A stretch of DNA of 64,000 nt. Source: Aliarcobacter sp. GTDB taxonomy: Bacteria; Campylobacterota; Campylobacteria; Campylobacterales; Arcobacteraceae. Position 1 is the first letter of the stretch. Every line of letters starts with the position of its first letter. The notes under the pieces are model-generated. The model was not told the origin of the DNA. It made no database searches and saw nothing but the letters and a program-made list of their open reading frames with translations. Position numbers and translations under genes: made by a program. The stretch is taken from NCBI GenBank assembly GCA_028688995.1, contig JAQTXB010000002.1, forward strand, positions 186,001-250,000. Direction: 5' to 3'. This document shows, piece after piece, positions 12,830-34,056 of this stretch.

Positions 12830-12853
12830 AAGTAGAGATTTTTATCTCTACTT
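12830..12853 (+). terminator. rho-independent terminator after flagellin
   Basis: The stem AAGTAGAGAT pairs with ATCTCTACTT (10 bp, loop TTTT) and is followed by TTTC. It lies 14 bases after the flagellin stop codon. Its distal arm overlaps the stop end of the convergent maf gene (12848), so it may also slow transcription arriving from that side, although the minus-strand T run is poor. Confidence 0.88.
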
Positions 12854-17638: not shown

Positions 17639-17698
17639 TGACTTACCACTTTTAAAGTTATTTTAGCTATTATATAATAGTTATACTTAGGAGAAAGA
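17639..17698. promoter_or_regulatory. bidirectional promoter built on a 14-bp palindrome
   Basis: CTATTATATAATAG at 17667-17680 is a perfect palindrome. It gives TATAAT on the plus strand (17673-17678) and TATAAT on the minus strand (complement of 17669-17674). It is the only region that can start the divergent operons at 17638 (minus) and 17699 (plus). The plus-strand GTG start is preceded by TAGGAGA. Because the two boxes overlap, RNA polymerase could occupy only one direction at a time. Confidence 0.7.
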
Positions 17699-19093
17699 GT
17701 GCGTAAAATTGAGGACATATATTTTGATAATTTTGATGAAGCATTAAAAATAGCTGAAGAACAAAATGTATTTGGTCCATATAATAATTTACAAATATGC
17801 TACTATGATGGTCCTATAAGAAAAAAAAATTTAAAAAATTTAATTCATTTACCTCTCAATAATTTTTCAGAAACTCTTATTCACTTAGGAACTAGAATTC
17901 CTACAAAAATTATTCATGATAATAAAAATTTAGTAGAGTTCGAACTAAATAATTTTTTAGAAAAAAAAGAAAAGATTCATTTAGATTTAAAAAATAAAAT
18001 TCTAAAAAAACATCTTAATTTTAATGAAAAACTTCGTATTTACATTAGTGCAGAATATGGTGGAAAAGTTGTTTTAAGAACTTATAAATTTTTATCTAAA
18101 TTATTTAATGAAAATGGCTTTGATGTCTATTTTGATATTAATGATGAATTAACTCTAATGGATGATTATAGAAGATCAAAATCTATCGAAGAATTTAATC
18201 CTCATTTAACATTTAATATTAACAGACTAAGAAATGAACAAATACATCCTGATACTTTTAATTTTATTTGGTTTATGGATCCAACTTTAATATTATTTGA
18301 TGATTCATCCCTTAATCTAAGAAAAAGAGATTATATATTTTATATAGGAAATGAAATATATAGTGCTTTAAAAAATAAAAAAATTCCAGAAGAAAAAATC
18401 ATACACCAATTTTTAACTCCTGATTATAATATATTTAAATTTTCTGGAAATATAAAAAAAGAGAATAAAGTTATATTTGTTGGACAAAATTATTTTGAAG
18501 TAATTGAACCTACTAAAAGTTATAAAAACCATCCTGTTGTAAATGATCTTACAAATTTATTTAATAATAATGAAATTACTTTTGAAAAATTAAATGAATT
18601 AAAAGAAAAATATTCATCAACAATTAAAAGAGATGAACATATAGAAGTATTTATATATCCAGCTGTTGTTCGACAAGAAATTGTCAAATGGATTTGCCAA
18701 CAAGATAAAATTAAAGTCGAAATATACGGTGAAGGTTGGAATAATATAGTTGAAACTAAAACTTTCTCAAAAGGAGTGATTAAATCAGAAGAAAAACTAA
18801 ATGAAATCTATAATAGTGCAAAATACTCATTAGTTGTACACTCAAGTTTTATGTACATTCCTAAATTATTTGAAAGTAGTGCAGCAAATTGTATCCCTTT
18901 AGTTTATAGAGGAATTACTACATTAGACGATTTTAAACATAATAAAAATGTTTTAACTTTTTCAGATAAAAAAAGTCTTTATAACTCTTTAGATAAAAAG
19001 ACGGAAGAATCACCCATAGAAATAAGTAAACAAATTTCAACAAAATCCATTTTAGATAAAATATTATCAATTATTCAAAAGGAATTCAAATAG
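17699..19093 (+). CDS. glycosyltransferase, CgeB / group 1-like
   Basis: A 464-residue protein. The C-terminal third looks like a GT-B nucleotide-sugar domain: VEIYGEGWNN, the NEIYNSAKYSLVVHSS segment, then PKLFESSAANCIPLVYRG, which matches the end-region of CgeB-like glycosyltransferases (E near the nucleotide site, then an AxGxxPL-like turn). The middle has RIYISAEYGGKVVLRTYKFL and NFIWFMDP. The start is GTG with AGGAGA upstream. It is the first gene of the long plus-strand operon. An A9 run at 17821-17829 lies early in the gene. Donor and acceptor are unknown. Confidence 0.72.
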   Translation: MRKIEDIYFDNFDEALKIAEEQNVFGPYNNLQICYYDGPIRKKNLKNLIHLPLNNFSETLIHLGTRIPTKIIHDNKNLVEFELNNFLEKKEKIHLDLKNKILKKHLNFNEKLRIYISAEYGGKVVLRTYKFLSKLFNENGFDVYFDINDELTLMDDYRRSKSIEEFNPHLTFNINRLRNEQIHPDTFNFIWFMDPTLILFDDSSLNLRKRDYIFYIGNEIYSALKNKKIPEEKIIHQFLTPDYNIFKFSGNIKKENKVIFVGQNYFEVIEPTKSYKNHPVVNDLTNLFNNNEITFEKLNELKEKYSSTIKRDEHIEVFIYPAVVRQEIVKWICQQDKIKVEIYGEGWNNIVETKTFSKGVIKSEEKLNEIYNSAKYSLVVHSSFMYIPKLFESSAANCIPLVYRGITTLDDFKHNKNVLTFSDKKSLYNSLDKKTEESPIEISKQISTKSILDKILSIIQKEFK

Positions 19094-20082
19094 TGAAAAA
19101 AATATTAATTGTAGGAAGTAACTCTTTTTCTGGTTCAAATTTTGTAAATAATCAATTGAATGAGGATTATGAAGTATTTGCAACAAGTAGGTCATCAGAA
19201 TTAAACAATGTATTTTTACCATATAAAAAGAATTCAAGATTAAATAATCTTCATTTCTCTCAACTTGATTTAAATAAAAATTTAGATGAATTAATGAATT
19301 TAATAAAAAAAGAAAAAATCTCTCAAATAGTAAACTTTGCTGCACAAAGTATGGTAGGACAAAGTTGGGATACACCTGAACATTGGTATATGACAAACAC
19401 TGTTTCAACAATAAAATTTCATAATCAATTAAAAAATTTAGATTTTTTGGATAAATACGTTCATATTTCTACTCCAGAGGTATATGGTTCATGTGAGGGT
19501 CTAATCAAAGAACATAGAAATTATAATCCAAGCACTCCTTATGCAACATCAAGAGCAGCTGCTGACATGAGTTTAAAAAATTTTTATGACACTTATAATT
19601 TCCCAGTAGTTTTTACAAGAGCTGCAAATGTATTTGGAGAACATCAACAACTATATAGAATCGTACCTAAGGCTATTATTTCTTTTTTAATTAAAGAAAA
19701 AGTACCTTTACATGGTGGAGGAAAATCTATTAGATCATTTATTCACATGGATGATGTATCAAAAGCAACAAACCTAATATTGAATAATGGAAATATAGGA
19801 GATATTTATCATATATCAACCAAACAAAATATTTCAATTAAATCATTAGTTGAAATGATTGCTAAACAATTAAATATACCTTTTGAAGAAAACGTAGAAA
19901 TTACAGAAGATAGAAAAGGAAAAGATAGTGCATATTTACTGGATAGTAGTAAATTAAGAGAATCACTTAATTGGCAAGACACAATATCTTTAGAAAAAGG
20001 TATTGAGAAAACTATTAGTTGGGTGAAAGATAATTTAGAAGAACTTTTAAAACAACCCATGAATTATATACATAAACAATAA
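19093..20082 (+). CDS. NAD-dependent epimerase/dehydratase, 4,6-dehydratase-like, with Arg in place of the catalytic Lys
   Basis: Extended SDR of the nucleotide-sugar type: VGSNSFSGSNF at the NAD site, NFAAQSMVGQSWDTP (as in dTDP-glucose or GDP-mannose dehydratases), and STPEVYGS. The YxxxK motif reads YATSR at residues 150-154 (codon 19552-19554 is AGA), so the catalytic Lys is replaced by Arg. RSFIHMDDVSKA is the usual C-terminal block. The start is GTG at 19093, overlapping the preceding TAG by one base, with AAAGGA upstream. It probably acts on an NDP-sugar of the flagellar glycan. Confidence 0.83.
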   Translation: MKKILIVGSNSFSGSNFVNNQLNEDYEVFATSRSSELNNVFLPYKKNSRLNNLHFSQLDLNKNLDELMNLIKKEKISQIVNFAAQSMVGQSWDTPEHWYMTNTVSTIKFHNQLKNLDFLDKYVHISTPEVYGSCEGLIKEHRNYNPSTPYATSRAAADMSLKNFYDTYNFPVVFTRAANVFGEHQQLYRIVPKAIISFLIKEKVPLHGGGKSIRSFIHMDDVSKATNLILNNGNIGDIYHISTKQNISIKSLVEMIAKQLNIPFEENVEITEDRKGKDSAYLLDSSKLRESLNWQDTISLEKGIEKTISWVKDNLEELLKQPMNYIHKQ

Positions 20083-20090
20083 GGTAAAAA

Positions 20091-21029
20091 ATGAAAAATA
20101 TATTAATAACTGGTGGAACAGGCTACGTTGGAACACTATTAACAGAAACTTTACTAAAAGAAGGTCATAAGATTACTGTTGTTGATACAATGTGGTTCGG
20201 TAACTATTTAGAGGAACATAAAAATCTAACTTTAATTAAAACTGATATTTTAGATATAGATTCTATTCCAATGGAAGGAATTGATACAATTTTTCATCTT
20301 GCAAATATTGCAAATGACCCAACAGGAGATTTAAATTCTAAACTTACATGGGAAGTAAATGTATTAGCTTCAAAATTATTAGTAGAAAAAGCAATAAAAA
20401 GTGGAGTTAAACAGTTTATCTATGCAAGTAGTGGAAGTGTTTATGGTGTTAAAGAAGAAGATCAAGTAACGGAAGATTTAGATTTAATACCAATTAGTGA
20501 TTACAATAAAACTAAAATGATTAGTGAAAGAGTATTTTTAAGTTATAAAGACCAGATAAATACTGTAATTATTAGACCTGCTACAGTTTGTGGTTATAGT
20601 AAAAGAATGAGACTAGATGTATCTGTAAATATGCTTACGATGCAAGCTTTAACAAATAAAAGAATTACCGTGTTTGGAGGAAATCAAACAAGACCAAATA
20701 TACATATACAAGATATGGTTAATGTATATTTACATTTTTTAAAAAATAATACTCTAACAGGAATATATAATGCTGGTTTTGAAAATATTTCTATTTTGGA
20801 TATAGCACAGAAAGTTGCTAATAAAATAAATGCTGAAATTATTGTTAGTGAATCTAATGATCCAAGGTCATATAGACTTAACTCAGATAAACTTCTTCTT
20901 ACAGGATTTAAACCTCAATTTACAGTTCAAACTGCAATTGATGAAATTAGTGAAAATTATAATAAAGGTATTTTAAAAGATGAAGATAAATATTATAATT
21001 TGAAAGTAATGAAAGAATTAGGATTATAA
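20091..21029 (+). CDS. NAD-dependent epimerase/dehydratase
   Basis: Extended SDR with TGGTGYVG at residues 7-14, FHLANIANDP, YASSGSVYG and an intact YNKTK catalytic motif. The C-terminal part has RPNIHIQDMVNVY. It has 312 residues. Similar proteins epimerise or reduce nucleotide-activated sugars. It is spaced 8 bases after the previous SDR and ends 1 base before the methyltransferase gene, so co-expression is clear. Substrate unknown. Confidence 0.86.
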   Translation: MKNILITGGTGYVGTLLTETLLKEGHKITVVDTMWFGNYLEEHKNLTLIKTDILDIDSIPMEGIDTIFHLANIANDPTGDLNSKLTWEVNVLASKLLVEKAIKSGVKQFIYASSGSVYGVKEEDQVTEDLDLIPISDYNKTKMISERVFLSYKDQINTVIIRPATVCGYSKRMRLDVSVNMLTMQALTNKRITVFGGNQTRPNIHIQDMVNVYLHFLKNNTLTGIYNAGFENISILDIAQKVANKINAEIIVSESNDPRSYRLNSDKLLLTGFKPQFTVQTAIDEISENYNKGILKDEDKYYNLKVMKELGL

Positions 21030-21030
21030 A

Positions 21031-21690
21031 ATGGGTATAGAAATTGATTTATTAGAAAATTATCCTAAAACAAAAAGAGATTTAAAACAAAGAGCTAATG
21101 AAAAAACGCAAGAAGATAGAAATATAGCTAGAAAGTTTGGTCAAGATTTTTTTGATGGTGATAGAAAACATGGTTATGGTGGGTTTAACTATATGAGTAG
21201 ATTTTGGCAACCTGTTATACCCACATTTATAAAACATTTTAATTTAAATGAAAATTCTAAAGTTTTAGATGTAGGTTGTGCAAAAGGTTTTATGCTTTTT
21301 GATATGAAAGAAGCTATTCCAAATATAACTATTGAAGGAATAGATATCTCTTCTTATGCCATTGAAAATGCAAAAGAAGAAATAAAACAATTTTTAAGAG
21401 TTGGAAATGCAAAAGAACTTCCTTATGAAGATAATTCATTTGATGTTGTAATTTCAATAAACACTATTCATAATCTAGAAAAAAAAGAATGTGCAAAAGC
21501 ATTACAAGAAATTCAAAGAGTTAGTAGAGGGAAAAGCTTTATTACAGTTGATGCATATAGAAATGAAGAAGAAAAAGAAGCTATGTATGCTTGGAATCTA
21601 ACTGCTAAAACTATTATGAGTGTGGATGAATGGATTGCTTTTTTTGAAGAAGTTGGATATACAGGTGATTACTATTGGTTCATCCCTTAA
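21031..21690 (+). CDS. class I SAM-dependent methyltransferase
   Basis: A 219-residue methyltransferase. SAM motif I is VLDVGCAKGFML (about 77-88), the acidic strand-2 motif is IEGIDIS, and ELPYEDNSFDVVISINTIHN is motif IV of the Methyltransf_11 type. The first 60 residues are charged and include RKFGQDFFDGDRKHGYGG, a leader seen in methyltransferases of glycan clusters. It lies between the SDR and the E1 alpha gene. It probably methylates a sugar or sugar-linked group; the position is unknown. Confidence 0.84.
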   Translation: MGIEIDLLENYPKTKRDLKQRANEKTQEDRNIARKFGQDFFDGDRKHGYGGFNYMSRFWQPVIPTFIKHFNLNENSKVLDVGCAKGFMLFDMKEAIPNITIEGIDISSYAIENAKEEIKQFLRVGNAKELPYEDNSFDVVISINTIHNLEKKECAKALQEIQRVSRGKSFITVDAYRNEEEKEAMYAWNLTAKTIMSVDEWIAFFEEVGYTGDYYWFIP

Positions 21691-21699
21691 AGAGTATAG

Positions 21700-22677
21700 A
21701 TGAATAATATAGATATTAAAGAATTAAAACAAATTTATTTAACTGCTTATAAAATAAGAAATACTGAAGAAAGAATTGCAAATAAATATCATGAACAAGA
21801 GATGAGATGCCCTACACATTTAAGTATAGGACAAGAATTAATTCCTGCTATTTATGCTCAATTTGTAGATAATTCAGATTATGCAGTAAGTACCCATCGA
21901 GCACATGCACACTATCTTGCAAAAGGTGGGGATTTAAATGCAATGATTGCTGAGATTTATGGAAAAAGAACTGGTTGTTCACATGGAATGGGTGGTTCAA
22001 TGCATTTAATTGATAAAAGTGTTGGATTTATGGGAAGTACAGCAATTGTAGGTGGTACTATACCAATTGGGGTAGGTCTTGCATTATCTATTCAAATAAA
22101 AAATGAAAATAGAATAAGTAGCATTTTTTTAGGTGATGGAGCAACAGAAGAAGGAGTCTTTTATGAGTCTGTTAATTTTTCTGTAGTAAGAGAACTTCCT
22201 GTAATTTTTATATGTGAAAATAATTTATATTCTGTATATTCAAATTTAGAAGTAAGACAACCTAAAAATAGAAAAATCTATGAACTTGTAAAAGCAATGG
22301 GTATAAAATCTTCACATGCAGATGGTTATGATATTGAAGATTCGTATTGTAAATTAAAAGAAGCACTTAATTATGTAAAAAATGAAAAAAAACCATTTTT
22401 TATTGAGCTGGATACGTATAGATTTAGAGAACATTGTGGTCCAAATTTTGACAATAATATTGGATATAGAGAGATTAGTGAATATGAAGAGTTTTTAAAA
22501 AAAGACCCTTTGTTAAGATTAAAAGAATATCTTGAAACTAACTCTTCAAAAAAGCTTTTAGCTGAAGAAGAAAATATCATAAACAAGAATATAGAAGAAG
22601 CATTTACTTTTGCTAAAAATTCTCCTTGGCCTCAATACAAAGATATAAATACTTATCTTTATAAGGATAATAAATGA
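21700..22677 (+). CDS. thiamine-diphosphate dehydrogenase E1 alpha-like subunit
   Basis: Resembles the alpha subunit of pyruvate or acetoin dehydrogenase. The cofactor motif runs from GDG at 145-147 to NN at 174-175. Other family blocks are STHRAHAHYLAKGGD, CSHGMGGSMHL and the IVGGTIPIGVG segment. It has 325 residues. The beta subunit follows with a 4-base ATGA overlap. No lipoyl E2 or E3 gene is near. In this sugar operon it may transfer a two-carbon acyl unit from pyruvate to a keto sugar, as the unrelated single-chain YerE does in yersiniose synthesis (inference). Confidence 0.87.
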   Translation: MNNIDIKELKQIYLTAYKIRNTEERIANKYHEQEMRCPTHLSIGQELIPAIYAQFVDNSDYAVSTHRAHAHYLAKGGDLNAMIAEIYGKRTGCSHGMGGSMHLIDKSVGFMGSTAIVGGTIPIGVGLALSIQIKNENRISSIFLGDGATEEGVFYESVNFSVVRELPVIFICENNLYSVYSNLEVRQPKNRKIYELVKAMGIKSSHADGYDIEDSYCKLKEALNYVKNEKKPFFIELDTYRFREHCGPNFDNNIGYREISEYEEFLKKDPLLRLKEYLETNSSKKLLAEEENIINKNIEEAFTFAKNSPWPQYKDINTYLYKDNK

Positions 22678-23726
22678 GAAGCTTAACTTTTGCACAAGCA
22701 ATAAATGAAGCATTAGAAACAGCTCTTAGAATTGATGAAACAGTAATAAAGTATGGACTAGGTGTTACTGATCCATATGGTGTGTTTGGAACAACAAAAA
22801 ATTTAGAAGACAAATTTGGTTCTTCAAGAGTTTTTGATATGCCTACATCTGAAAATGGAATGACTGGTGTTGCAATTGGTGCAGCAATTGGTGGATTAAA
22901 ACCTGTAATGACACATCAAAGATTAGACTTTTTCCTTCTCGCTATGGATCAAATTGTAAATAATGCTGCTAAATTCCATTTTATGTTTGGAAAAGAAGTT
23001 AATGTACCAATAACAATTAGATTAATTATTGGTCGAGGATGGGGACAAGGTCCAACCCATGCTCAAAGTTTACAATCTTGGTTTGCCCATATTCCAGGTC
23101 TTAAAGTAGTAATGCCAACAACAGTAAAAGATGCAAAAGGTTTATTACTTTCAAGTATATTTGATCCAAATCCTGTTATCTTTTTAGAACATCGATGGCT
23201 TCATAATATGATAGGAGAAGTTGATGAAAGTGATGATTTTAGAGTAGAAATAGGAAAAGCTGAAATATTAAAAGAAGGTAAAGATATAACTATTGTTTCT
23301 ATGTCATATATGAGTATAGAAGCAATTCATGCAGCTAAAGAACTTGAAAAATATAATATTTCATGTGAGATTATAGACTTAAAAACCATAAGCCCTATTG
23401 ATTGGAATACTATTCATAAATCAATTGAAAAAACGAAAAGATTAATTGTTTTAGATACAGCTAGCGAATTTGGTGCAATAGGAAATGATATTGTTGCAGA
23501 TATTTCTATGAAATATTTTAGTGTTTTAAAATCTGCTCCAAAAATCATTGCTTTACCAAATATTCATGCACCAACGAGTTATTCTTTAACTAAAGATTAT
23601 TACAAAGATGCAAAAGATATTATTCTTGAAATATCAAAAATATTTAATATGCAAATTAATTTGTATAATATGATGAATAAAGTTCATCATGATATACCAG
23701 GAGAATGGTTTAAAGGACCATTTTAA
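22674..23726 (+). CDS. thiamine-diphosphate dehydrogenase E1 beta-like subunit
   Basis: Partner of the alpha subunit encoded immediately upstream. SENGMTGVAIGAA holds the Glu that activates the thiamine ring. RGWGQGPTHAQSLQSWFAHIPGLKVVMP and the FLEHRWLHN block are typical of E1 beta chains. The transketolase C-terminal domain follows from about residue 200 (KDITIVSMSYM). It has 350 residues, a little longer than usual; the extra tail ends in PGEWFKGPF. The start overlaps the alpha stop, which suggests 1:1 translation. Confidence 0.87.
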   Translation: MRSLTFAQAINEALETALRIDETVIKYGLGVTDPYGVFGTTKNLEDKFGSSRVFDMPTSENGMTGVAIGAAIGGLKPVMTHQRLDFFLLAMDQIVNNAAKFHFMFGKEVNVPITIRLIIGRGWGQGPTHAQSLQSWFAHIPGLKVVMPTTVKDAKGLLLSSIFDPNPVIFLEHRWLHNMIGEVDESDDFRVEIGKAEILKEGKDITIVSMSYMSIEAIHAAKELEKYNISCEIIDLKTISPIDWNTIHKSIEKTKRLIVLDTASEFGAIGNDIVADISMKYFSVLKSAPKIIALPNIHAPTSYSLTKDYYKDAKDIILEISKIFNMQINLYNMMNKVHHDIPGEWFKGPF

Positions 23727-23745
23727 AATAAAATTAGGAGAAATT

Positions 23746-24417
23746 TTGAAAGCAAAAGAAGATCAAAACCAATGTCAATTTGATAATTATGAAGAAAATA
23801 AATTTTCATTTGGACCTTTTTCATCTCATATTTTAAGAGATGACCCTAGACATATAGTTTTTATGTTGTCTAGATATAAATTCGTTTCAAAAATGCTAGA
23901 TGGTAAAAAACGAGTTGTTGAAATTGGATGTGGAGATGCAATAGGAATGCCTATTATTACTCAAACAGTTGATTATGTTTTAGGATGTGATTGGGAAGAG
24001 TTATTAATGGAAGGTAATAAAAAAAGAAATAAAAATCTAAATTGTGATTTTTTCACATGCGATATTACAAATACTATTCCTGATATTTCAAAAGGTAAAT
24101 TTGATGCTGCCTTTTCATTAGATGTAATTGAACATATTCCAAATGAAAATGAACATAAATATTTTGAAAATATTACAAAAGCATTAAAAGAGGATGGAGT
24201 ATTTATTATTGGAACACCAAATATAACAGCTAATCAATATGCTTCTGTGTTAAGTAAAGCTGGTCATATAAATTTACATTCACATAAAACTTTAAAAGAA
24301 AAAATGGAAAAATATTTTAAAAATTGTTTTTGTTTTTCAATGAATGATGAAATGGTACATACAGGATTTGGACCAATGGCTCATTATATTTTTGTTATGG
24401 GTGTTGGGCTGAAATAA
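23746..24417 (+). CDS. class I SAM-dependent methyltransferase
   Basis: The SAM motif is VVEIGCGDAIGMPI, followed by LGCDWEE and FDAAFSLDVIEHIPNENEH; the VIEHI block is typical of Methyltransf_11/UbiE-like enzymes. I chose the TTG at 23746, four bases after AGGAGA and just behind the E1 beta stop, giving 223 residues. An ATG at 23689 in frame would start inside the E1 beta gene with no ribosome binding site. It is the second of three methyltransferases in the operon. The end is directly joined to the next ATG. Confidence 0.82.
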   Translation: MKAKEDQNQCQFDNYEENKFSFGPFSSHILRDDPRHIVFMLSRYKFVSKMLDGKKRVVEIGCGDAIGMPIITQTVDYVLGCDWEELLMEGNKKRNKNLNCDFFTCDITNTIPDISKGKFDAAFSLDVIEHIPNENEHKYFENITKALKEDGVFIIGTPNITANQYASVLSKAGHINLHSHKTLKEKMEKYFKNCFCFSMNDEMVHTGFGPMAHYIFVMGVGLK

Positions 24418-25578
24418 ATGATAATTAAGCAAAATAACAAATGTGCAGTTTGTTCCAATACAGTTGAAAGTATTATTAAATTACCTAACTTTCCTTTAAC
24501 TGGAATATTTTCAGATAAATTTGATGCAAATTTTCACACTTTTAATCAAGAACTGCAATATTGTGATAATTGTAAACATTGTCAATTAAAGAATATTATT
24601 GATCCTAATATTTTGTATAGTGATCAATATTCTTTTCTTACTTCAAATAGTTCAAATTCTAGAAATTCAACAAGTAAATTTATTAATTTTATAAATAAAA
24701 ATTTACATAATATCCATAGTATTTTAGAATTTGGGTGTAATGATTTATATTTTCTCAAACAATTTGAGAAAGAAGGAAAAGAATGTATAGGGATAGATCC
24801 CATTTTAAATAAAATCAACAATGATTCAACAATTAAAGTTATTGCAGATTATGTTGAAAATATAGATTTTAGTAATTATTTATTAAAACCTCCCTGCTTA
24901 ATTTGTTCTCAACATACAATTGAACATATACCAGATATAAGAAAAACTTTAGAAAAATTAAAAAGTATTTCAAATGATGAAACAGTTTTTGCTTTTGAAT
25001 TTCCTAATTTTGATTTGTTAATTCAAAATAGAAGATTTGACCAAATTTTTCATGAACATGTTCACTATTTTAGTTTAGACTCTTTTTTTTATCTTCTAAA
25101 AGAATTATCATTTGAAGTAATTGATTATGAGTTTAATTTTGATAAATGGGGAACTATTTATATTCTTTTTAAAAATTCTAAAAATAATAATTTTTCTCAT
25201 AAAACTAAGAATTTAAATAAAGAAGTAATATTAAATGCCTATAAAAATTTTAAAAGTAGTATTGAGAACTGTATAGATATATTAGAACAATTTAAACAAG
25301 AAGAAAAATATGCTTATGGCGCGTCACTGATGTTACCAAGTTTAAATTATCATTTTAACAATTATTTAACCAAATTAAATTGTATTTTAGATGATGATGA
25401 AAATAAAAAAAATAAAAAATATATCAATATAGATATTGACATAGACATTGAAAAAAACAATGTTCAATATGATAAATCTGTAATTCTAATTACAGCATTA
25501 GAACACACAAAAAATATAAGTAAAAAATTAATTAATAAAAATACTAAAAATATTATAGTGCCAATAAATATATACTGA
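24418..25578 (+). CDS. sugar C-methyltransferase-like protein (zinc-binding N-terminus)
   Basis: It has the three-part build of NDP-hexose C-methyltransferases such as TylCIII. First comes an N-terminal zinc knuckle with CAVCSN and YCDNCKHCQL. A SAM domain follows (ILEFGCNDLYFL, then SQHTIEHIPD). The signature IFHEHVHYFS contains the His implicated in catalysis in this family. The C-terminal domain (about 260-386) is the usual Methyltransf_14-like fold but is more divergent and Asn/Lys-rich, with a repeated ID stretch. It would add a methyl branch to a keto sugar. It follows the previous gene with no gap. Confidence 0.83.
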   Translation: MIIKQNNKCAVCSNTVESIIKLPNFPLTGIFSDKFDANFHTFNQELQYCDNCKHCQLKNIIDPNILYSDQYSFLTSNSSNSRNSTSKFINFINKNLHNIHSILEFGCNDLYFLKQFEKEGKECIGIDPILNKINNDSTIKVIADYVENIDFSNYLLKPPCLICSQHTIEHIPDIRKTLEKLKSISNDETVFAFEFPNFDLLIQNRRFDQIFHEHVHYFSLDSFFYLLKELSFEVIDYEFNFDKWGTIYILFKNSKNNNFSHKTKNLNKEVILNAYKNFKSSIENCIDILEQFKQEEKYAYGASLMLPSLNYHFNNYLTKLNCILDDDENKKNKKYINIDIDIDIEKNNVQYDKSVILITALEHTKNISKKLINKNTKNIIVPINIY

Positions 25579-25589
25579 GGATAGAAAAA

Positions 25590-26354
25590 ATGGATTTAAA
25601 TATAAAAAACAAGAAAGCGCTTATTACAGGAGCTAGTGGCGGATTGGGTAAAGCAATAGCTCATTCTTTAATTGAAGAAGGAGTAGAAGTTTGTATTGTA
25701 TCTAGAAGTTTAGAAAAAATGGAGAATTACTTAAAAAATTATAATGGTAAACACTTAGCATTAGAATATGACTTAATGGAAGAGAATGCACCAACGCAAA
25801 TGGTAAATGAAATGCTTGAAAAGTTTGGAACACCAGATATTATAATACATAATGTGGGTGGTACATTAGATATTAAAGACCCTTTTTGTAGCTTAGAAGA
25901 TTGGAGAAGGGTTTATAGATTTAATCTTGAAATAGCTCTAGAAATTAATCAAATTTTGATTCCAAAACTTCAAGAAAAGAAATGGGGAAGAGTTATTCAT
26001 ATATCTTCAATTGCATCATTAGAAAATCAAGGACCAATTACATATTGTTCAATAAAAGCAGCATTAACAGCTTATACAAGAAGTATTGGAAGAGTTGTAT
26101 CAGCTGATGGAGTTAGCGTGTCAGCAGTACTTCCAGGTGCTGTTTATACTGAAGGTGGCTATTGGGATTACACATCAAAAAATAATCCAGAACATGTAGA
26201 AAAATATTTAAATGAAAGAATGGCTATTAAAAGATTTGGAACATTGGAAGAAATTTCTAAAATTACTACATTCCTTGCATCTGATTACGCAGGGTTCATA
26301 GTTGGCTCATCTTTTGTTGTAGATGGTGGTCAAGGAAAATCATTTACTTACTAA
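25590..26354 (+). CDS. short-chain dehydrogenase/reductase, FabG-like
   Basis: Classical SDR of 254 residues. TGASGGLG binds NAD(P), HNVGG is the NNAG-equivalent, and the Ser-Tyr-Lys triad is in HISSIASLENQGPITYCSIKAA. The end has the usual SSFVVDGGQG. It lies between the C-methyltransferase and the split transketolase genes, so a sugar or short polyol substrate is more likely than a fatty acid. It has 26 bases of spacing to the next gene. Confidence 0.87.
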   Translation: MDLNIKNKKALITGASGGLGKAIAHSLIEEGVEVCIVSRSLEKMENYLKNYNGKHLALEYDLMEENAPTQMVNEMLEKFGTPDIIIHNVGGTLDIKDPFCSLEDWRRVYRFNLEIALEINQILIPKLQEKKWGRVIHISSIASLENQGPITYCSIKAALTAYTRSIGRVVSADGVSVSAVLPGAVYTEGGYWDYTSKNNPEHVEKYLNERMAIKRFGTLEEISKITTFLASDYAGFIVGSSFVVDGGQGKSFTY

Positions 26355-26380
26355 AAAAATTAAATTCACTAAGGTTTAAA

Positions 26381-27160
26381 ATGAATAACGATTTAAGAAA
26401 AAAAATTGTAGAACTGGTTTGTAAAGCAAAAGAAGGTCATATACCAAGCACATTCTCTATTGTTGATATTATTTCAACTTTATATAAAAATGTTTTAAAA
26501 GTTAATCCTAAAAATCCAAATTGGGAAGATAGAGATTATTTTATTTTAAGTAAAGGACATGGAGGATTAGCACTATTTGTTGTTTTACATAAATATGGAT
26601 TTTTAACGGATGAACAACTAGAATCATATTCTACTCTAGGAAGTATACTTGGTGGACATCCTGATGTTACAAAAGTTCCTGGGGCAGAAGCTTCAACAGG
26701 TAGCTTAGGACATGGATTATCATTTTCTCTTGGAATTGCATTAGGACATAAAATCAATAAAGCAGAGAATAGAGTTTTTACACTTATTGGAGATGGAGAA
26801 TCACAAGAAGGTACAATATGGGAAGCAGCACAAGTTGGAGTAAATCTAAAACTTGGGAACTTATGCATAATTGTTGATAATAATCAAAGTGCTGCGCAGT
26901 TAATGCCTTTACAAAATCCTGCAAAAAGATGGGAAGCATTTGGATGGAATGTATTTGAAATTGATGGACATGATGAACAAGAACTTATAAATATCATCAA
27001 TAAAATAGATTTTAAGGGAAATATTCCTAGCGTAATTATTGCAAATACAATAAAAGGAAAAGGTGTAAAAATGACTGAAGGTCATGGACAATGGCACCAT
27101 AAAATACCAAATAAAGAAGAATATAAAATTCTGATGGAGGAATTAAGTGGAAAAAATTAA
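26381..27160 (+). CDS. transketolase, N-terminal subunit (split enzyme)
   Basis: 259 residues covering only the thiamine-diphosphate-binding half of transketolase. Seen are a GH pair at 19-20, LSKGHGGLALF, STGSLGHGLSFSLG and the cofactor motif from IGDGESQEG to VDNNQ. The ending has GKGVKMTEGHGQWHHKIP. The C-terminal half is a separate gene that begins inside this one (14-base overlap). Split transketolases transfer or remove two-carbon ketol units; the apulose-4-phosphate enzyme is a known split example. Here it may build or trim a sugar in the glycan pathway. Confidence 0.88.
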   Translation: MNNDLRKKIVELVCKAKEGHIPSTFSIVDIISTLYKNVLKVNPKNPNWEDRDYFILSKGHGGLALFVVLHKYGFLTDEQLESYSTLGSILGGHPDVTKVPGAEASTGSLGHGLSFSLGIALGHKINKAENRVFTLIGDGESQEGTIWEAAQVGVNLKLGNLCIIVDNNQSAAQLMPLQNPAKRWEAFGWNVFEIDGHDEQELINIINKIDFKGNIPSVIIANTIKGKGVKMTEGHGQWHHKIPNKEEYKILMEELSGKN

Positions 27161-28067
27161 TATAAGAAAACAATTTGCAAACACTGTACTTGAAATTGGT
27201 AAAAAAGATGATAGATTAACTGTACTTCTTGGAGATATTGGTCATTTTAATATGATTCCTTTTGCAGAAGCATGTGAAGGGCGTTTTTATAATGTTGGAA
27301 TTTGTGAACCTACTATCATTAGCATGGGTGCAGGACTATCTCGAGTAGGTAAGATTCCTGTTATCCATACTATTAATCCATTTATTGTAGAAAGATCATT
27401 CGAACAACTTAAATTAGATTTTGTTTATCAAAAACTTGCAGGGAATATTATAACAGTTGGTAGTTTGTTTGATTATAGCCAACTGGGATGTACACATCAC
27501 TGTTATGGTGATTTTGCATTATTAAAAACTCTATTTGATGTACAGATTATTTATCCTGCAACAAATGAAGAATTTGATACTTTATTTAAACAAACGTATA
27601 ACAATGATAAATTAACATTCTTTAGAATTCCTGAGATTTCTCATAATATTCATATTAATGAACCTATAAAATTTGGGAAAGCTATAAAAATAACAGAAGG
27701 TAAAGATTTAACAATTGTAGTTACAGGTTCACAATTAAATAATGTAAAAAAAGTTCAAGAAAAATTAAAAGAGAGTAACATAGAAGTAGAAATTATTTAT
27801 ATTCATACTATTAGACCTTTAGATAAAGAATCTATATTTTCAAGTGTTAATAAAACTAAAAAGGTTGTTGTTGTTGAAGAGCATGGTGAAAATGGAGGAT
27901 TAGGAGAAGATGTTTTAAAAGAAATATATAAAATAAATGATTTACAATTTGAACATATCTGTGTTAAAGGTGGTTTTATTCATCAATATGGAACATTTGA
28001 TGAACTATTAAATATTGCTGGACTAACTTATGAAAATATTTTAAAAGTTAGTAAAACTCTTTTATAA
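27147..28067 (+). CDS. transketolase, C-terminal subunit (split enzyme)
   Basis: 306 residues matching the pyrimidine-binding and C-terminal domains. VLLGDIGHFN opens the pyrimidine domain. GICEPTIISMGAGLS contains the Glu that activates the cofactor. The C-terminal regulatory fold starts near residue 180 (DLTIVVTGSQ) and contains VVVEEHGENGGLGE. The GTG start at 27147 has an excellent GGAGG seven bases upstream, inside the N-terminal subunit gene. Active enzyme should need both chains. Confidence 0.88.
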   Translation: MEKINIRKQFANTVLEIGKKDDRLTVLLGDIGHFNMIPFAEACEGRFYNVGICEPTIISMGAGLSRVGKIPVIHTINPFIVERSFEQLKLDFVYQKLAGNIITVGSLFDYSQLGCTHHCYGDFALLKTLFDVQIIYPATNEEFDTLFKQTYNNDKLTFFRIPEISHNIHINEPIKFGKAIKITEGKDLTIVVTGSQLNNVKKVQEKLKESNIEVEIIYIHTIRPLDKESIFSSVNKTKKVVVVEEHGENGGLGEDVLKEIYKINDLQFEHICVKGGFIHQYGTFDELLNIAGLTYENILKVSKTLL

Positions 28068-28086
28068 TAAAAAGGAATAATTTTTT

Positions 28087-29136
28087 ATGGCAACAAGCAC
28101 ATCATTTCACCAAAATCACGAACTATTTACGGAACAAGCTTATAAAAATAATAATTTATTACCCGATAGATATGTTTTTGTTTTAACTAATCAATGTAAT
28201 TTAAGATGTGAATTTTGTTTTCAAGAAAAAGCCAAAATAAGTACAAACTTAACAACTCAAGAATGGTTAAACTTTGTTGATGAAATACCAGATTATGCAA
28301 GAATAACTTTTACAGGAGGAGAACCCTTTATGTTTGAAGGTTTTGAAGAAATATTTAAAAAAGTTGCTTCAAAACATACTTGTAATGTAATATCTAATGG
28401 GTTACTTTTAAGTGACAAAATTATAGATTTATTACTTTCTTATGAAAATTTCAAAGTTCTATCTATCTCTTTAGAAGATAAATATAATAAAACTAGAGAC
28501 GTTAGATTAAAGAAATGGCAGGAAGCAGAGATTCAAATTAAAAAATTTACTAAATTAAAAAAAGAAAGAAATTTAGAAACGCTTCTCGATATAAAAACTG
28601 TAGTTCTTGATGAAAATGCAAACTCATTATACGAGATGTATAAATATGCAAAAGAAGAGTTAGGTTGTGATACCCACTCTTTTCAATTCTTAAAAGGTTC
28701 TCCATTACAACATTCGGATAAAATGTATGCGCTAGATACAATATATGTACCTAATTTGGCTTACGAATATAAGAATTTTGATATTATTAAAAAAGAATTA
28801 GAAAAAATTGCTAAAGAAAATCCACCTAGTGTATTCGTACATCCTAAATTTATAGAATTAAAAGAAGATGAAGACTTTTCTAAATTGGATATTATAAATA
28901 ATCCTATTCTAAAAAAAGAATATTTTCAAGCTTGTAAATTCCCATGGTCTAGTGTACATATTAATTATGATGGAAGCCTTTACCCTTGTATGTCTATATC
29001 AATGGGAAATATAAAAAACCTATCTCTAAAAAATATAATTTTTGGAAAAGACTTCACTAATTTTAAGAATATTATAAAAAAAGAAGAATTGGTAAATGGC
29101 TGTAATAGATGTGGATGGTTAAGGCTAAAGAAATGA
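28087..29136 (+). CDS. radical SAM protein with SPASM-like C-terminus
   Basis: The 4Fe-4S site CxxxCxxC is at Cys37, Cys41 and Cys44 (CNLRCEFC), and FTGGEPFMF is the SAM-binding GGE motif. The C-terminal part has CKFPWSSVHINYDGSLYPC and then NGCNRCGW, a cysteine pattern of auxiliary cluster (SPASM/twitch) domains. It has 349 residues. Its position between the split transketolase and an SDR suggests radical chemistry on a sugar or on a peptide-linked group, but the reaction cannot be told. Oxygen-sensitive, as are all members. Confidence 0.85.
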   Translation: MATSTSFHQNHELFTEQAYKNNNLLPDRYVFVLTNQCNLRCEFCFQEKAKISTNLTTQEWLNFVDEIPDYARITFTGGEPFMFEGFEEIFKKVASKHTCNVISNGLLLSDKIIDLLLSYENFKVLSISLEDKYNKTRDVRLKKWQEAEIQIKKFTKLKKERNLETLLDIKTVVLDENANSLYEMYKYAKEELGCDTHSFQFLKGSPLQHSDKMYALDTIYVPNLAYEYKNFDIIKKELEKIAKENPPSVFVHPKFIELKEDEDFSKLDIINNPILKKEYFQACKFPWSSVHINYDGSLYPCMSISMGNIKNLSLKNIIFGKDFTNFKNIIKKEELVNGCNRCGWLRLKK

Positions 29137-29990
29137 AAAATATAGTTATATTAGGGGATAGTAGCTTTATTGGATGCAATATCTCTAAAAAACTTAATAA
29201 TGAATTTAATATATTTGGGTTTAATTCTAAAAATTGTAATTTATTAGAGTATAAACATATTGAAAAAACTCTAAGAACTATAGAGAATATTGATTGTATA
29301 ATATTTTGTTCTTCAATAACAAGACTCAAAGAAAATACTATATTTAGTTTAGAAAAAAATGTTCTAATGTCTATAAATGTAGCAAAATTTATAGAAAATT
29401 ATCCCATAAAACAATTAATATTTTTAAGTAGCATTGATATATATGGTAATACAGAAGAAGAATATACTGAGGACTTAGTACCTAATCCTAACGATTATTA
29501 TGCAAAGTCTAAAAGTATTTCCGAAATAATTCTAAAAGAAGCAATAAAAAAACATAATACAAAACTATTTATTCCAAGATTAAGTGGAGTATTTGGTAAA
29601 AATGACAATAATAAAAGCACAATATATGATTTAGTATCTTCGGCATTAAATAAAAAAGAGATAACTCTTTTTAATAATGGGGAAGATACACGAGATTATA
29701 TATATATTGATTTTTTGATTGAAATAATAAGAAATGCTATAAATAGAGAATATGAGGGTATCTTAAATATTGCAACAGGAAAAAGTTATTCAATTAAAAC
29801 CATATCTCAATTAATTATTAATTTAATTGATAATAATGTTAAATTAATCCTAAAAAATGATAAAAATAATTCACGAAATAAAAAAATTAATTTTAATATA
29901 TCAAAATTAAAAAATAGTAATTTAATTACTAATAATCTAGATATTAAAGATTATATCAAATTATACATAGGGTGTTTTAATGAAAAATAA
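29133..29990 (+). CDS. NAD-dependent epimerase/dehydratase
   Basis: Extended SDR, 285 residues from the ATG at 29133, which overlaps the preceding TGA as ATGA and has AAGG upstream. An in-frame ATG at 29109 would add eight residues but lies deeper in the radical SAM gene. Motifs: ILGDSSFIGCN, LSSIDIYG, and YYAKSK with an intact catalytic Tyr and Lys. The protein is Asn/Lys-rich and very AT-biased towards its end. It probably acts on a nucleotide sugar; substrate unknown. Confidence 0.82.
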   Translation: MKNIVILGDSSFIGCNISKKLNNEFNIFGFNSKNCNLLEYKHIEKTLRTIENIDCIIFCSSITRLKENTIFSLEKNVLMSINVAKFIENYPIKQLIFLSSIDIYGNTEEEYTEDLVPNPNDYYAKSKSISEIILKEAIKKHNTKLFIPRLSGVFGKNDNNKSTIYDLVSSALNKKEITLFNNGEDTRDYIYIDFLIEIIRNAINREYEGILNIATGKSYSIKTISQLIINLIDNNVKLILKNDKNNSRNKKINFNISKLKNSNLITNNLDIKDYIKLYIGCFNEK

Positions 29991-30888
29991 TATTCAAAGT
30001 ATTCATTTAGAACTTATTTCAAAATGTAATTTAAAATGTGTTCACTGTGAATTAAACAGAAACTCTTATGAATCAAAAGGTAATAAAATTAATTTTGAAG
30101 ATACAATTAATCTACTAAAAGAATTAAAGCCTAAAGAAAAAAATAGTATAAGTCTTATCTTACAAGGAGTAGGAGAAGCTACTTTACATCCTCAATTTGA
30201 AGAATTCTTAAAAATCGGTATTGAATTAGGATACAGAGTTTCTACAACATCAAATCTTCTTGCTTGGAAAAAGAATAAATATAAATCTTTCTTAGATATA
30301 GGATTAAATTTACTAACTGTTTCTGTTGATACAATTAATCAAGAACTTACAGAAAAAACAAGAAAAGGGACTAATGTTGAGAAATTAAAAGAAAATTTAA
30401 TTTACCTTTCTCAATATTATTCAGAAAAACTCTATATTTATACAGTGGTAAGTGATATTACTATTGATTATATTGATGAACTTTATGAATTTATTAAACA
30501 ACTTAATGTACAAAAGTGGCAATTTATCTATTTGTTGAATGAAAATGGAACTCAAGGTATTTCAAAAGAAAATAAAAATAAGCTAGCAAAAAAAGTTGAT
30601 AAATTTAAGGATATTAATAATTTAGTATTACCAATAGAACAAAATGAGAGTTATTGTCAACAACCATTTAATATATTACATATCAATGCAATGGGTTATA
30701 TCATGCCATGTTGCCTTTATTGGGATCATAATTTAATTAATTTTGGAAATATACGAGATAAAAATATAAATCTTCAATTTAATTCTATTAAATTTAACAC
30801 ATTTAGAAAAGAAATGTCATTGGGCAAAGCTGAAATATGTACCACATGTACCCTATATAAACCTTATGCAAAAAATATGGATAATTAA
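29980..30888 (+). CDS. radical SAM/SPASM protein
   Basis: Second radical SAM gene of the operon. The cluster site is Cys16, Cys20 and Cys23 (CNLKCVHC), with LQGVGEATLHP as the SAM-binding region. The C-terminal cysteines include the YIMPCCLYW block and CTTCTLY, as in SPASM domains. It has 302 residues. It overlaps the previous gene by 11 bases and the next by 1. The two radical SAM proteins are not close copies of each other, so they probably perform different steps. Confidence 0.85.
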   Translation: MKNNIQSIHLELISKCNLKCVHCELNRNSYESKGNKINFEDTINLLKELKPKEKNSISLILQGVGEATLHPQFEEFLKIGIELGYRVSTTSNLLAWKKNKYKSFLDIGLNLLTVSVDTINQELTEKTRKGTNVEKLKENLIYLSQYYSEKLYIYTVVSDITIDYIDELYEFIKQLNVQKWQFIYLLNENGTQGISKENKNKLAKKVDKFKDINNLVLPIEQNESYCQQPFNILHINAMGYIMPCCLYWDHNLINFGNIRDKNINLQFNSIKFNTFRKEMSLGKAEICTTCTLYKPYAKNMDN

Positions 30889-31934
30889 TGAAAGCAGCTG
30901 TTTTAAATAATACAAATACTCCGCTAAAGATAGAAAGAATAAAATTTAATACGTTACAAAGAGGCCAAGTTCTTGTTAGAATTGCCTATAGTGGGGTTTG
31001 TCACTCTCAACTAATGGAAGTACGAGGGAAAAGAGGTGAAGACAAATGGTTACCTCATTTATTAGGTCATGAAGCAACAGGAATAGTAGAAGAGATAGGG
31101 GAAGGTGTAACTAAAGTTAAACTTGGTGATAAAGTTGTTCTGGGTTGGATTGAGTCAGAAGGAATTGATGCACAATGTGCTATATATAATAATGGAGATA
31201 AAATCATTAATTCAGGAAAAGTAACAACTTTCAATGAATTATCAGTTATATCTGAAAATAGAATAATAAAACTTCCAGACACAATTCCAATGGATGTAGG
31301 TGTTTTATTTGGTTGTGCAATACCAACTGGTGCAGGAATAGTAATAAATGAAATTAAACCAAAAGAAAATACAACTATTGCTATTTTTGGATTAGGGGGG
31401 ATAGGTCTTAGTGCACTTATGGCTACTAAACTTTACAATTTTGAAAAAATAATCGCAATAGATGTTGAAGAAAAAAAACTTCAATTAGCAATAGATTTTG
31501 GAGCAACACATACAATTAATTCAAAAAAACAAAATATAAAAGATGAAATCAATAAATTAACAAATAATTGTGGAGTTGATTATAGTGTTGAAGCAACTGG
31601 ACTATCAACTATAATAGAACTTGCATTCAAAAGTGTAAAAAATAATGGTGGATTATGTGTATTTGCTTCTCATCCTCAAAAAGGAGATTTAATATCAATT
31701 GATCCCTTTGATTTAATTTGTGGAAAAAATATAAAAGGAACTTGGGGTGGTGCGTGTAAACCAGATATAGACTTACCAATGTTTTTTAAACTGTATGAAG
31801 AGGGAAAACTTCCATTAGAAAAACTTCTTGAAAAAAAGTACACTTTAGATGAAATAAATATAGCATTGGATGATTTAGAAAATAGAAAAGTTACAAGACC
31901 TTTAATTGAAATAAATAAAAGTTTGGGAAAATGA
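30888..31934 (+). CDS. zinc-dependent alcohol dehydrogenase without the structural zinc site
   Basis: Medium-chain dehydrogenase. The catalytic-zinc residues Cys38 (GVCHSQ), His61-Glu62 (LLGHEATG) and a later Cys in FGCAIPTGAG are present. NAD is bound by GLGGIGLSALM. The four-cysteine lobe for the structural zinc, usually just after the catalytic half-site, is absent: the region GWIESEGIDAQCAIYN has a single Cys. It has 348 residues. It would oxidise or reduce a sugar or polyol carbonyl in the pathway (inferred). The start overlaps the previous stop by one base. Confidence 0.86.
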   Translation: MKAAVLNNTNTPLKIERIKFNTLQRGQVLVRIAYSGVCHSQLMEVRGKRGEDKWLPHLLGHEATGIVEEIGEGVTKVKLGDKVVLGWIESEGIDAQCAIYNNGDKIINSGKVTTFNELSVISENRIIKLPDTIPMDVGVLFGCAIPTGAGIVINEIKPKENTTIAIFGLGGIGLSALMATKLYNFEKIIAIDVEEKKLQLAIDFGATHTINSKKQNIKDEINKLTNNCGVDYSVEATGLSTIIELAFKSVKNNGGLCVFASHPQKGDLISIDPFDLICGKNIKGTWGGACKPDIDLPMFFKLYEEGKLPLEKLLEKKYTLDEINIALDDLENRKVTRPLIEINKSLGK

Positions 31935-33352
31935 AAAAGACTTCATTAGTATATGGAAATTTTAATATCCTTCATCCAGGTCATTTAAGATTACTAAAAT
32001 TTGCAAAAGAGAGTTCTGATTACTTAATAGTAGCTATAAATTCAAATAAAACAACTAAAGATCTTAATTTATTTGATGAACAAACTAGATTAGAATCAAT
32101 AAAAGCAACTTCCTATGTAGATGAAGCTTTTATATTAAATGAAGATATTCTTGAATATATAAAAAGAGAAAAACCTTTTTTTATAGTTAAAGGAAAAGAA
32201 CATGAAAATGAAGAAAATTTAGAAGAAGAAATATTAAAAGAATATGGGGGAAAACTCCTTTTCACATCAGGAGAAATTGGATTTTCATCACTTGACTTAC
32301 TAAATAAAGATTTTGAAATAAACTATTCTTTTATTAATCATTCAAATGAATATATAAAAAGACATAACATTAACAAAAAACAACTTGAAAGATATATAGA
32401 AGATTTCTCAAAACTTAATATACTAGTAATCGGTGATACAATTGTTGATGAATATATTACTTGTAATCCAATAGGAATGAGTCAAGAAGACCCTACAATA
32501 GTTGTAACACCTATATCAAGTAAGAAATTTATTGGTGGAGCAGCAATTGTAGCATCTCATGCTAAAACTTTAGGAGCAAAGGTTTCTTATATTTCAGTAT
32601 TAGGAGATGACGATAATTTCAAATTTACAAATACTTATTTAGAAGAATTAAATATAAATGCTTTATTATATAAAGATTCAACTAGACCCACTACCCTAAA
32701 ACAAAGATTTAGAGCCCATAATAAAACTCTTCTTAGAGTAAATCACTTAAAACAGCACTACATAAATAAAGAATTTGAAAAAAAAATAATTAGTAAAATA
32801 AAAAAAATAAAAAATTTAGACCTTATTATATTTTCAGATTTTTCCTACGGGGTATTAACAAAAAATTTAATTGATACTATTTCAGAATTTGCAAAAAAAG
32901 AATCTATAAAAATTGTTGCTGATTCCCAAAGTTCTTCTCAAACTGGAGATATTTCGAAATTTAAAGATATGGATATTGTTACTCCTACAGAAAGAGAAAT
33001 TAGATTAGCATTAAATAATTTTGAATCAGGATTAGTTATTTTATCAAAGAAATTACATAAAAAATCAAATCCAAAATATATTTTTACTACTTTAGGAAGT
33101 GAAGGTATCATGATTTATAATTCTCAAGAAAATGATTTATTAACAGATAATATTTTAGCATTAAATACAAATGCAAAAGATGTAAGTGGGGCAGGAGATT
33201 CTTTATTAACTTGCTCCTCAATGGCATTAGCAGTAGGAGCTACTATTTGGCAGAGTGCTTATTTAGGCTCAATTGCAGCAGCAATTCAAGTAAGTAGAGT
33301 AGGTAATACTCCTATAAAAAAAGAAGAAATTTTAAAGGAACTAAACTTTTGA
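31931..33352 (+). CDS. nucleotidyltransferase / PfkB sugar kinase fusion (HldE domains in reversed order)
   Basis: Residues 1 to about 130 are a cytidylyltransferase-fold domain with GNFNILHPGH (9-18), like the C-terminal half of HldE. Residues about 155-473 are a PfkB/ribokinase-type kinase with GGAAIVASHAKTLGAKV and the anion-hole motif DVSGAGDSL, like the N-terminal half of HldE. Classical HldE (RfaE) has the kinase first. The protein should phosphorylate a sugar phosphate at C1 and then activate it with a nucleotide. It overlaps the ADH gene by 4 bases. A heptose or heptose-like substrate is an inference from the family. Confidence 0.85.
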   Translation: MKKTSLVYGNFNILHPGHLRLLKFAKESSDYLIVAINSNKTTKDLNLFDEQTRLESIKATSYVDEAFILNEDILEYIKREKPFFIVKGKEHENEENLEEEILKEYGGKLLFTSGEIGFSSLDLLNKDFEINYSFINHSNEYIKRHNINKKQLERYIEDFSKLNILVIGDTIVDEYITCNPIGMSQEDPTIVVTPISSKKFIGGAAIVASHAKTLGAKVSYISVLGDDDNFKFTNTYLEELNINALLYKDSTRPTTLKQRFRAHNKTLLRVNHLKQHYINKEFEKKIISKIKKIKNLDLIIFSDFSYGVLTKNLIDTISEFAKKESIKIVADSQSSSQTGDISKFKDMDIVTPTEREIRLALNNFESGLVILSKKLHKKSNPKYIFTTLGSEGIMIYNSQENDLLTDNILALNTNAKDVSGAGDSLLTCSSMALAVGATIWQSAYLGSIAAAIQVSRVGNTPIKKEEILKELNF

Positions 33353-34056
33353 AAGCAATTTTATTAGCTGCAGGATTAGGTACAAGATTAAAGCCAATAA
33401 CAAATAGTATTCCAAAATGTTTAGTTCCCATAAATGGGAAACCACTTCTGCAATATTGGTTAGAAAATCTAAATAAAGTAGGAGTAAATGAATTCTTAAT
33501 TAATACTCATTACTTTAATGAACAAGTCGAGAAATTTATAGAGGATTCACCTTTCAAAAATAAAATTACTTTAGTTTATGAAAAAGAATTATTAAATACA
33601 GGAGGAACTATTTTAAACAATAAAAATTTTATTAATAATGAACCTTTTTTATTAATACATGCGGATAATTTATCTTTTTGTGATTATGACAAATTTATAA
33701 AAAGTTATTTTAACAGACCTAAAAACTGTGAATTAACCATGATGTTATTTAGAACTGATTCTCCAAAAAATTGTGGAATTGTAGAATTGAACAATAACAA
33801 TATAGTAGAAAAATTTTATGAGAAAGTTGAAAATCCTCCCTCAAACCTTGCAAATGCAGCTGTATATATTTGTAATCCTTCAATAATAAAGTTTATGGAA
33901 ACTTTAAATAAAAGAAATATTGATTTTAGTAATGATGTCCTACCAAATTTTATGAATAAAATCAATACATATATTAACAATACTTATCATAGAGATATTG
34001 GCTCAATTGAAAGTTATGCAATTGCACAAATTGAAATTCTAGATTTTATTCAATAA
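33349..34056 (+). CDS. sugar-phosphate nucleotidylyltransferase, HddC-like
   Basis: 235 residues of the NTP-transferase family. LAAGLGTRLKPITNSIPKCL is the nucleotide-binding signature, followed by KPLLQYW, LLNTGGTI and LIHADNLS. It resembles D-glycero-alpha-D-manno-heptose-1-phosphate guanylyltransferase and mannose-1-phosphate guanylyltransferases. The start is TTG, overlapping the preceding TGA, with AAAGGA upstream. It is the last gene of the long plus operon, and its 3' end overlaps the convergent ATP-grasp gene by 11 bases. The sugar is unknown. Confidence 0.84.
   Translation: MKAILLAAGLGTRLKPITNSIPKCLVPINGKPLLQYWLENLNKVGVNEFLINTHYFNEQVEKFIEDSPFKNKITLVYEKELLNTGGTILNNKNFINNEPFLLIHADNLSFCDYDKFIKSYFNRPKNCELTMMLFRTDSPKNCGIVELNNNNIVEKFYEKVENPPSNLANAAVYICNPSIIKFMETLNKRNIDFSNDVLPNFMNKINTYINNTYHRDIGSIESYAIAQIEILDFIQ

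Follow-up and report, generated by a model that had tools for sequence, protein, structure and literature searches.

A 17-gene operon (g01 to g17) and the divergently transcribed gene n1 of a member of the Arcobacteraceae (Campylobacterota) probably direct the synthesis of a nucleotide-activated, C-branched and methylated heptose derivative, with flagellin as its most likely acceptor; we assign this reading a probability of about 0.65. The genes lie in a stretch of 64,000 nucleotides, here called the window, from a genome of 2.95 Mb that is 96.5% complete. The original prediction of a sugar that is nucleotide-activated and extended by carbon branches is supported, and a probable heptose backbone and a glycosyltransferase of the operon's own (g01) are added to it.

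The 17 intact ORFs are arranged head to tail on the plus strand (17699-34056) with intergenic distances of -38 to +26 bp, which agrees with the earlier description of an array on one strand with overlaps or short gaps. The enzyme classes named at that time were likewise recovered with Pfam and NCBIfam profiles: four SDRs (g02, g03, g09 and g13), three methyltransferases (g04, g07 and g08), two two-gene ThDP enzymes, two radical SAM/SPASM proteins, one zinc-family alcohol dehydrogenase, one nucleotidyltransferase-PfkB fusion and one NTP transferase. The profiles also identified g01 as a glycosyltransferase. The four thiamine genes make up two enzymes, g05/g06 and g10/g11. Catalytic motifs were present in both ThDP enzymes, the radical SAM proteins, g08, g16 and g17. 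On the minus strand, 60 bp from the g01 operon, n1 is the first gene of a divergent operon that also encodes, in this order, an FkbM methyltransferase, an oxidoreductase of the Gfo/Idh/MocA type and Maf. Beyond it lie the genes for flagellin and a TPR protein. The pathway had been equated with the 17 plus-strand genes, all of which are retained, but its extent has to be widened by the GmhA-like gene n1. A single promoter for the 17 genes is plausible, the candidate being TTTAAA-16-TATAAT at 17651-17678 inside the 60-bp divergent gap; sigma-70 promoter-like sites were not enriched in the region (120 versus 136.5 in shuffled sequences). On the 3' side of g17 a pseudaminic acid (Pse) cluster is located, followed by recA and enolase. 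The tail of this cluster is an ATP-grasp gene on the minus strand (34046-35200) that overlaps g17 by 11 bp.

Coordinates and assignments of the operon genes, n1 and the flagellar genes in the window.
Feature	Assignment	Position	Strand	Basis
n1	GmhA-like SIS-domain sugar-phosphate isomerase, core member	17069..17638	-	TIGR00441 112 bits; PDB best matches
g01	GT-B fold glycosyltransferase (PF13524)	17699..19093	+	Pfam; AlphaFold; Foldseek
g02	RmlB-like NDP-sugar 4,6-dehydratase, STPE motif, YxxxR replacing YxxxK	19093..20082	+	
g03	SDR epimerase/reductase, linked to E1 module	20091..21029	+	
g04	SAM methyltransferase	21031..21690	+	
g05	PDH-E1-alpha-like ThDP subunit (aKADH2), sugar-type clade	21700..22677	+	
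g06	PDH-E1-beta-like ThDP subunit	22674..23726	+	
g07	SAM methyltransferase	23689..24417	+	
g08	TcaB9/TylC3-type NDP-sugar C-methyltransferase	24418..25578	+	
g09	Classical SDR (FabG-like), ketoreductase candidate	25590..26354	+	
g10	Split-gene transketolase (type B), N-terminal half	26381..27160	+	
g11	Split-gene transketolase, C-terminal half (pyr + C domains)	27147..28067	+	
g12	Radical SAM/SPASM enzyme	28087..29136	+	
g13	SDR epimerase/reductase	29109..29990	+	
g14	Radical SAM/SPASM enzyme	29980..30888	+	
g15	Zinc-family alcohol dehydrogenase	30888..31934	+	
g16	HldE-like bifunctional protein, reversed order: nucleotidyltransferase (N), PfkB kinase (C); core marker	31931..33352	+	
g17	Sugar-1-phosphate nucleotidylyltransferase	33349..34056	+	
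n4	Maf flagellin glycosyltransferase	12848..14899	-	
flagellin	Likely acceptor	11971..12816	+	
TPR protein	TPR glycosyltransferase (FlmG/OGT/SPY-like architecture)	9273..10682	+	

A heptose is most likely the backbone sugar, since heptose enzymes are the best solved relatives of n1, g16 and g17. The best PDB matches of n1, in which the SIS motifs are present, are phosphoheptose isomerases (E 6e-23). The kinase half of g16 is closest to heptose-7-phosphate kinase (E 4e-21), and g17 to a putative 6-deoxy-D-manno-heptose pathway protein (E 7e-27). The nearest relatives of g02 are dTDP-glucose 4,6-dehydratases, whose T-x-E motif is kept. All scores against the curated profiles of the namesakes remained below cut-off, both for n1 (112 versus 209.45 bits, TIGR00441 gmhA) and for g16 (216 versus 345 and 61.6 versus 181.5 bits, HldE) and g02 (214.8 versus 365.1 bits, RmlB), so that the substrates may differ from those of GmhA, HldE and RmlB. 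This counts against our reading, as does the fact that the catalytic K normally found in YxxxK is an R in g02. The sequence YATSR at this site was seen in three of three Campylobacterota copies of the E1-type 4,6-dehydratases (window 19093-20082, L050:15526 and L052:451), while the copies of transketolase-type and Chlamydiales loci retain K. Canonical HldE and GmhB are encoded separately on another contig of the window genome, and the missing 1,7-bisphosphatase step can therefore be supplied by GmhB.

In the first ThDP enzyme the motif GDG..NN of g05 (at 145) and the catalytic Glu60 of g06 are intact. Matches of the two subunits to TIGR03182 and PRK09212, both under cut-off, would be expected if they belonged to a central metabolic dehydrogenase complex, for pyruvate or acetoin, whose place in the operon was accidental. 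An E2 acyltransferase (PF00198) was absent from the 96.5% complete window genome, while the identical search was positive in 10 of 14 control genomes; without E2, g05/g06 are not a pyruvate dehydrogenase, and the pyruvate/acetoin dehydrogenase role was rejected. More distant E1 pairs (36-39%) in genomes G050, G239 and G341 do adjoin an E2 gene. In a tree of E1 alpha subunits, which has long branches and is uncertain in its deep branching, g05 grouped with copies from G080, G103, Chlamydiales and Magnetococcales in a clade with 100/100 support, separate from the PDH-type E1. Members of this sugar-type clade have two extra residues in the loop where PDH has its phosphorylation site, and close relatives of g05/g06 occur among sugar genes. 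Taken with the lack of E2, these features make a dehydrogenase complex extremely improbable. The pair is best read as an enzyme that would transfer an acetyl group to a keto-sugar, the reaction suggested for AviB1/AviB2. Both AviB1/AviB2 and Pau11/Pau12 (= Plm8/Plm9) are PDH-E1 pairs that have been proposed to attach an acetyl branch to a keto-sugar (PMC4425429, PMC4802897, PMC12247030).

The second ThDP enzyme consists of the adjacent N and C halves of a transketolase (Tkt), with the ThDP motif and the catalytic Glu present; its best PDB match is the split-chain transketolase 6yak. A 2025 review lists three ThDP superfamilies with a known or proposed activity on keto-sugars: the YerE-like decarboxylases of LPS biosynthesis, the aKADH2 pairs of antibiotic pathways, among them AviB1/AviB2, and the split transketolases (PMC12247030). 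The split-transketolase candidates comprise 13 sequences, all from Streptomycetes and none of them characterised (PMC12247030). Further literature on sugar branching was drawn from PMC4425429, PMC4802897 and PMC4753412.

Related islands were collected with g16 as bait, irrespective of ThDP genes. This gave 25 Campylobacterota loci, 15 of them in 14 of 104 genomes of the family and 10 in other families of the phylum. A ThDP carboligase was found nearby in 23 loci: split transketolase alone in 19, an E1 pair alone in one (G080), a YerE-like enzyme alone in one (G425), and two kinds together in the window (E1 and split transketolase) and in G103 (E1 and a YerE-like enzyme whose best solved relative is JanthE; 8rph; PMC12188165). 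As for the exceptions, another contig of G051 encodes two split transketolases together with SIS, flagellin and Maf and breaks inside the second TktC, and the g16 locus of G052 is cut by its 8.5-kb contig. In 13 of the 25 loci the retrieved sequence also contained a homologue of n1. Most islands have the order rSAM6-TktN-short TktC at the place that is taken by SDR03-E1a-E1b in G080, G103 and the window; SIS, SDR02, MT04, ADH, g16 and g17 are constant across this swap. Relatives of the window's second module (g07-g14) were seen in G051 (TktN 77%, rSAM2-like end 49%) and G102 (rSAM1 50%, SDR09 40%). The Chlamydiales contig L055 carries SIS, g16-like, E1 pair, g02, g04, YerE-like, g07 and g15 homologues in a single run, and in three Magnetococcales contigs the E1 pair adjoins a g16-like gene and a split transketolase is encoded close by; these loci were found via E1a and are thus not independent of it. 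The E1a contig scan used few peptide patterns and for this reason yielded only six loci, so that the range of E1a over phyla is a lower bound. Movement of all 17 genes together was not supported: the complete set was absent from every other locus compared, and the operon is built from recombining modules.

The frequency of the split transketolase, the commonest partner of the core, could also mean that it provides n1 with a C7 (or C8) ketose phosphate as backbone and leaves branching to the E1 pair alone, given that transketolase and a GmhA-like isomerase catalyse successive steps of normal heptose supply. However, the window genome already encodes an ordinary full-length transketolase (C12:27706), and the cores of G080, G103 and G425 are accompanied by E1 or YerE-like enzymes with no split transketolase in the locus. 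The split transketolase thus behaves as one of several interchangeable carboligases. Backbone supply was rejected as its role because E1 or YerE replaces it at the same core, and we regard it as improbable.

Several further observations were made in the related loci. Two ATPase_2/AAA genes of G051 (contig C51; L081:14051-15172 and 17348-18487) stand in core order at the TktN/TktC place of the related island L036; they were rejected as substitute carboligases because their Pfam assignment is ATPase_2. In G103 (L052:9414-10847), B12-binding and radical SAM halves resemble one split cobalamin radical SAM gene, of which an intact homologue is found at L037:17689-19200. A single Magnetococcales protein (L056:13767-16034) combines TPR, B12-binding and radical SAM domains beside the E1 pair and the g16-like gene. 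Most split-transketolase islands (L034-L045, L125-L132) contain the radical SAM/SPASM families rSAM6, near TktN, and rSAM9, beside g16, and their short TktC has no C-terminal domain. Sugar clusters with a split transketolase but without g16 were also seen (L028, L029, L033, L038, L041 and L042); several of them have DegT-type aminotransferases and other nucleotidyltransferases, and L028 also a YerE/ALS-like enzyme.

With respect to tailoring, g08 is similar to sugar C-methyltransferases of the TcaB9 type (E 4e-20) and has the zinc-binding N domain and the FDQIFxEH segment of TylC3/TcaB9 proteins, and g04 and g07 are candidates for O-methyltransferases. The CxxxCxxC motif is intact in the SPASM radical SAM proteins g12 and g14. 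Enzymes of this type, such as AviX12 and BtrN, catalyse epimerisations or oxidations at carbons of sugars or cyclitols, and by analogy g12/g14 could open a second carbonyl for g10/g11. In paulomycin biosynthesis the aldo-keto reductase Pau7 reduces the acetyl branch to hydroxyethyl (PMC4753412); g15 or g09 could act likewise here. The glycosyltransferase g01 is of the GT-B type by Pfam and by fold (AlphaFold pLDDT 78.7), with GT4/BshA-like Foldseek matches.

From these relationships the following pathway is proposed, in which the reactions, their order and the positions modified are predictions. Sedoheptulose-7-phosphate would be isomerised by n1 and phosphorylated at C1 by the kinase domain of g16; the 7-phosphate would be removed by the housekeeping GmhB, and the nucleotide added by g17 (or the N domain of g16). 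A 4-keto-6-deoxy sugar would then be formed by g02. After decarboxylation of pyruvate, g05/g06 would add the two-carbon acetyl group to the ketone to give a tertiary alcohol. Next, g10/g11 would use a ketose phosphate as donor of a glycolaldehyde unit (two carbons) for a second carbonyl, which the radical SAM chemistry of g12/g14 may have opened. A C-methyl group from g08, O-methyl groups from g04/g07, and reduction or epimerisation by g03, g09, g13 and g15 would follow. For the final attachment of the sugar the candidates are g01, Maf and the TPR glycosyltransferase.

Flagellin is the likely acceptor because the genes for flagellin, Maf and the TPR glycosyltransferase lie alongside. They flank the operon, flagellin and Maf being adjacent, which confirms the location given in the original prediction. 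In the TPR protein the C-terminal domain is conserved, and the predicted structure (pLDDT 88) matches SPY and OGT, both of them TPR O-glycosyltransferases; FlmG has the same architecture (PMC7591256). Alternatively, the same branched sugar may go to LPS, capsule or another surface glycan and not, or not only, to flagellin. This would suit L055, where SIS, g16-like, E1, YerE-like, g02, g04 and g15 genes have an ABC transporter and glycosyltransferase-like genes as neighbours while flagellin and Maf were absent across 21 kb, and the 14 of 25 g16 loci in which neither was seen in the fetched stretch. On the other hand, flagellin or Maf was found in the stretches of the remaining 11 loci, and recA stands at the border of several islands, just as it does in the window. 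Together with the flagellar genes beside the window operon, this makes another surface acceptor rather unlikely. The L055 locus nevertheless weighs against our reading, and the neighbouring Pse pathway could feed Maf alone. No GNAT (PseH) was seen among the scanned Pse genes of the window, and Pse may therefore carry an unusual substituent. With flagellin retained as the probable acceptor, the operon contributes its own GT-B glycosyltransferase (g01) besides Maf and the TPR glycosyltransferase.

More tentatively, and with less confidence than we place in the product of the operon, the Campylobacterota may possess combinatorial surface-glycan islands that join one heptose-activation core to interchangeable ThDP enzymes forming carbon-carbon bonds, from all three of the superfamilies listed above; in the window this would lead to a flagellin sugar bearing a C-methyl group and two unlike branches of two carbons each, hence at least ten skeleton carbons. 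The enzyme kinds are known singly; what appears to be new is how they are combined, the exchange of three ThDP superfamilies at a single core, and their occurrence in a flagellar setting. In the open-licence literature no paper was found that joins flagellin glycosylation, transketolase and radical SAM, and an earlier description is possible. E1-like and split-transketolase branching enzymes are known mainly from antibiotic biosynthesis (PMC12247030); if our reading is true, they would gain a protein-glycan setting. The split transketolases that stand alone at 19 g16 loci would by themselves be new candidates for deciding whether transketolases branch keto-sugars. The swaps suggest that flagellar surfaces may diversify through exchange of carboligase modules.

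The system resembles several known ones in part. Enzymes of the same families isomerise, phosphorylate and nucleotidylate the sugar in the GDP-/ADP-heptose pathway (GmhA, HldE, GmhB, HddC), but the domains of g16 are reversed relative to HldE, where the kinase is N-terminal and the adenylyltransferase C-terminal, the scores lie below the equivalog cut-offs, and housekeeping HldE and GmhB are separate. As in the window, the aKADH2 sugar-branching pairs of avilamycin, paulomycin and kibdelomycin are encoded as E1 alpha/beta among nucleotide-sugar genes; those pairs come from antibiotic clusters and their sugars are mostly hexose-derived, whereas here a heptose-type core lies beside flagellin genes in Campylobacterota. 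The split-gene transketolases of the miharamycin and amipurimycin clusters belong to a kind for which all 13 candidates in the review come from Streptomycetes; here such enzymes occur frequently in glycosylation islands of Campylobacterota. In G103, G425 and Chlamydiales the core is joined by a third carboligase kind, the YerE-like enzymes (yersiniose A; JanthE, PDB 8rph), whose known role is in branched sugars of LPS; the window itself is without one. Finally, flagellin glycosylation islands (Pse/Leg with Maf, FlmG) are alike in position, Maf, TPR glycosyltransferase and Pse genes, to which the window adds a second, non-nonulosonate pathway for a branched sugar.
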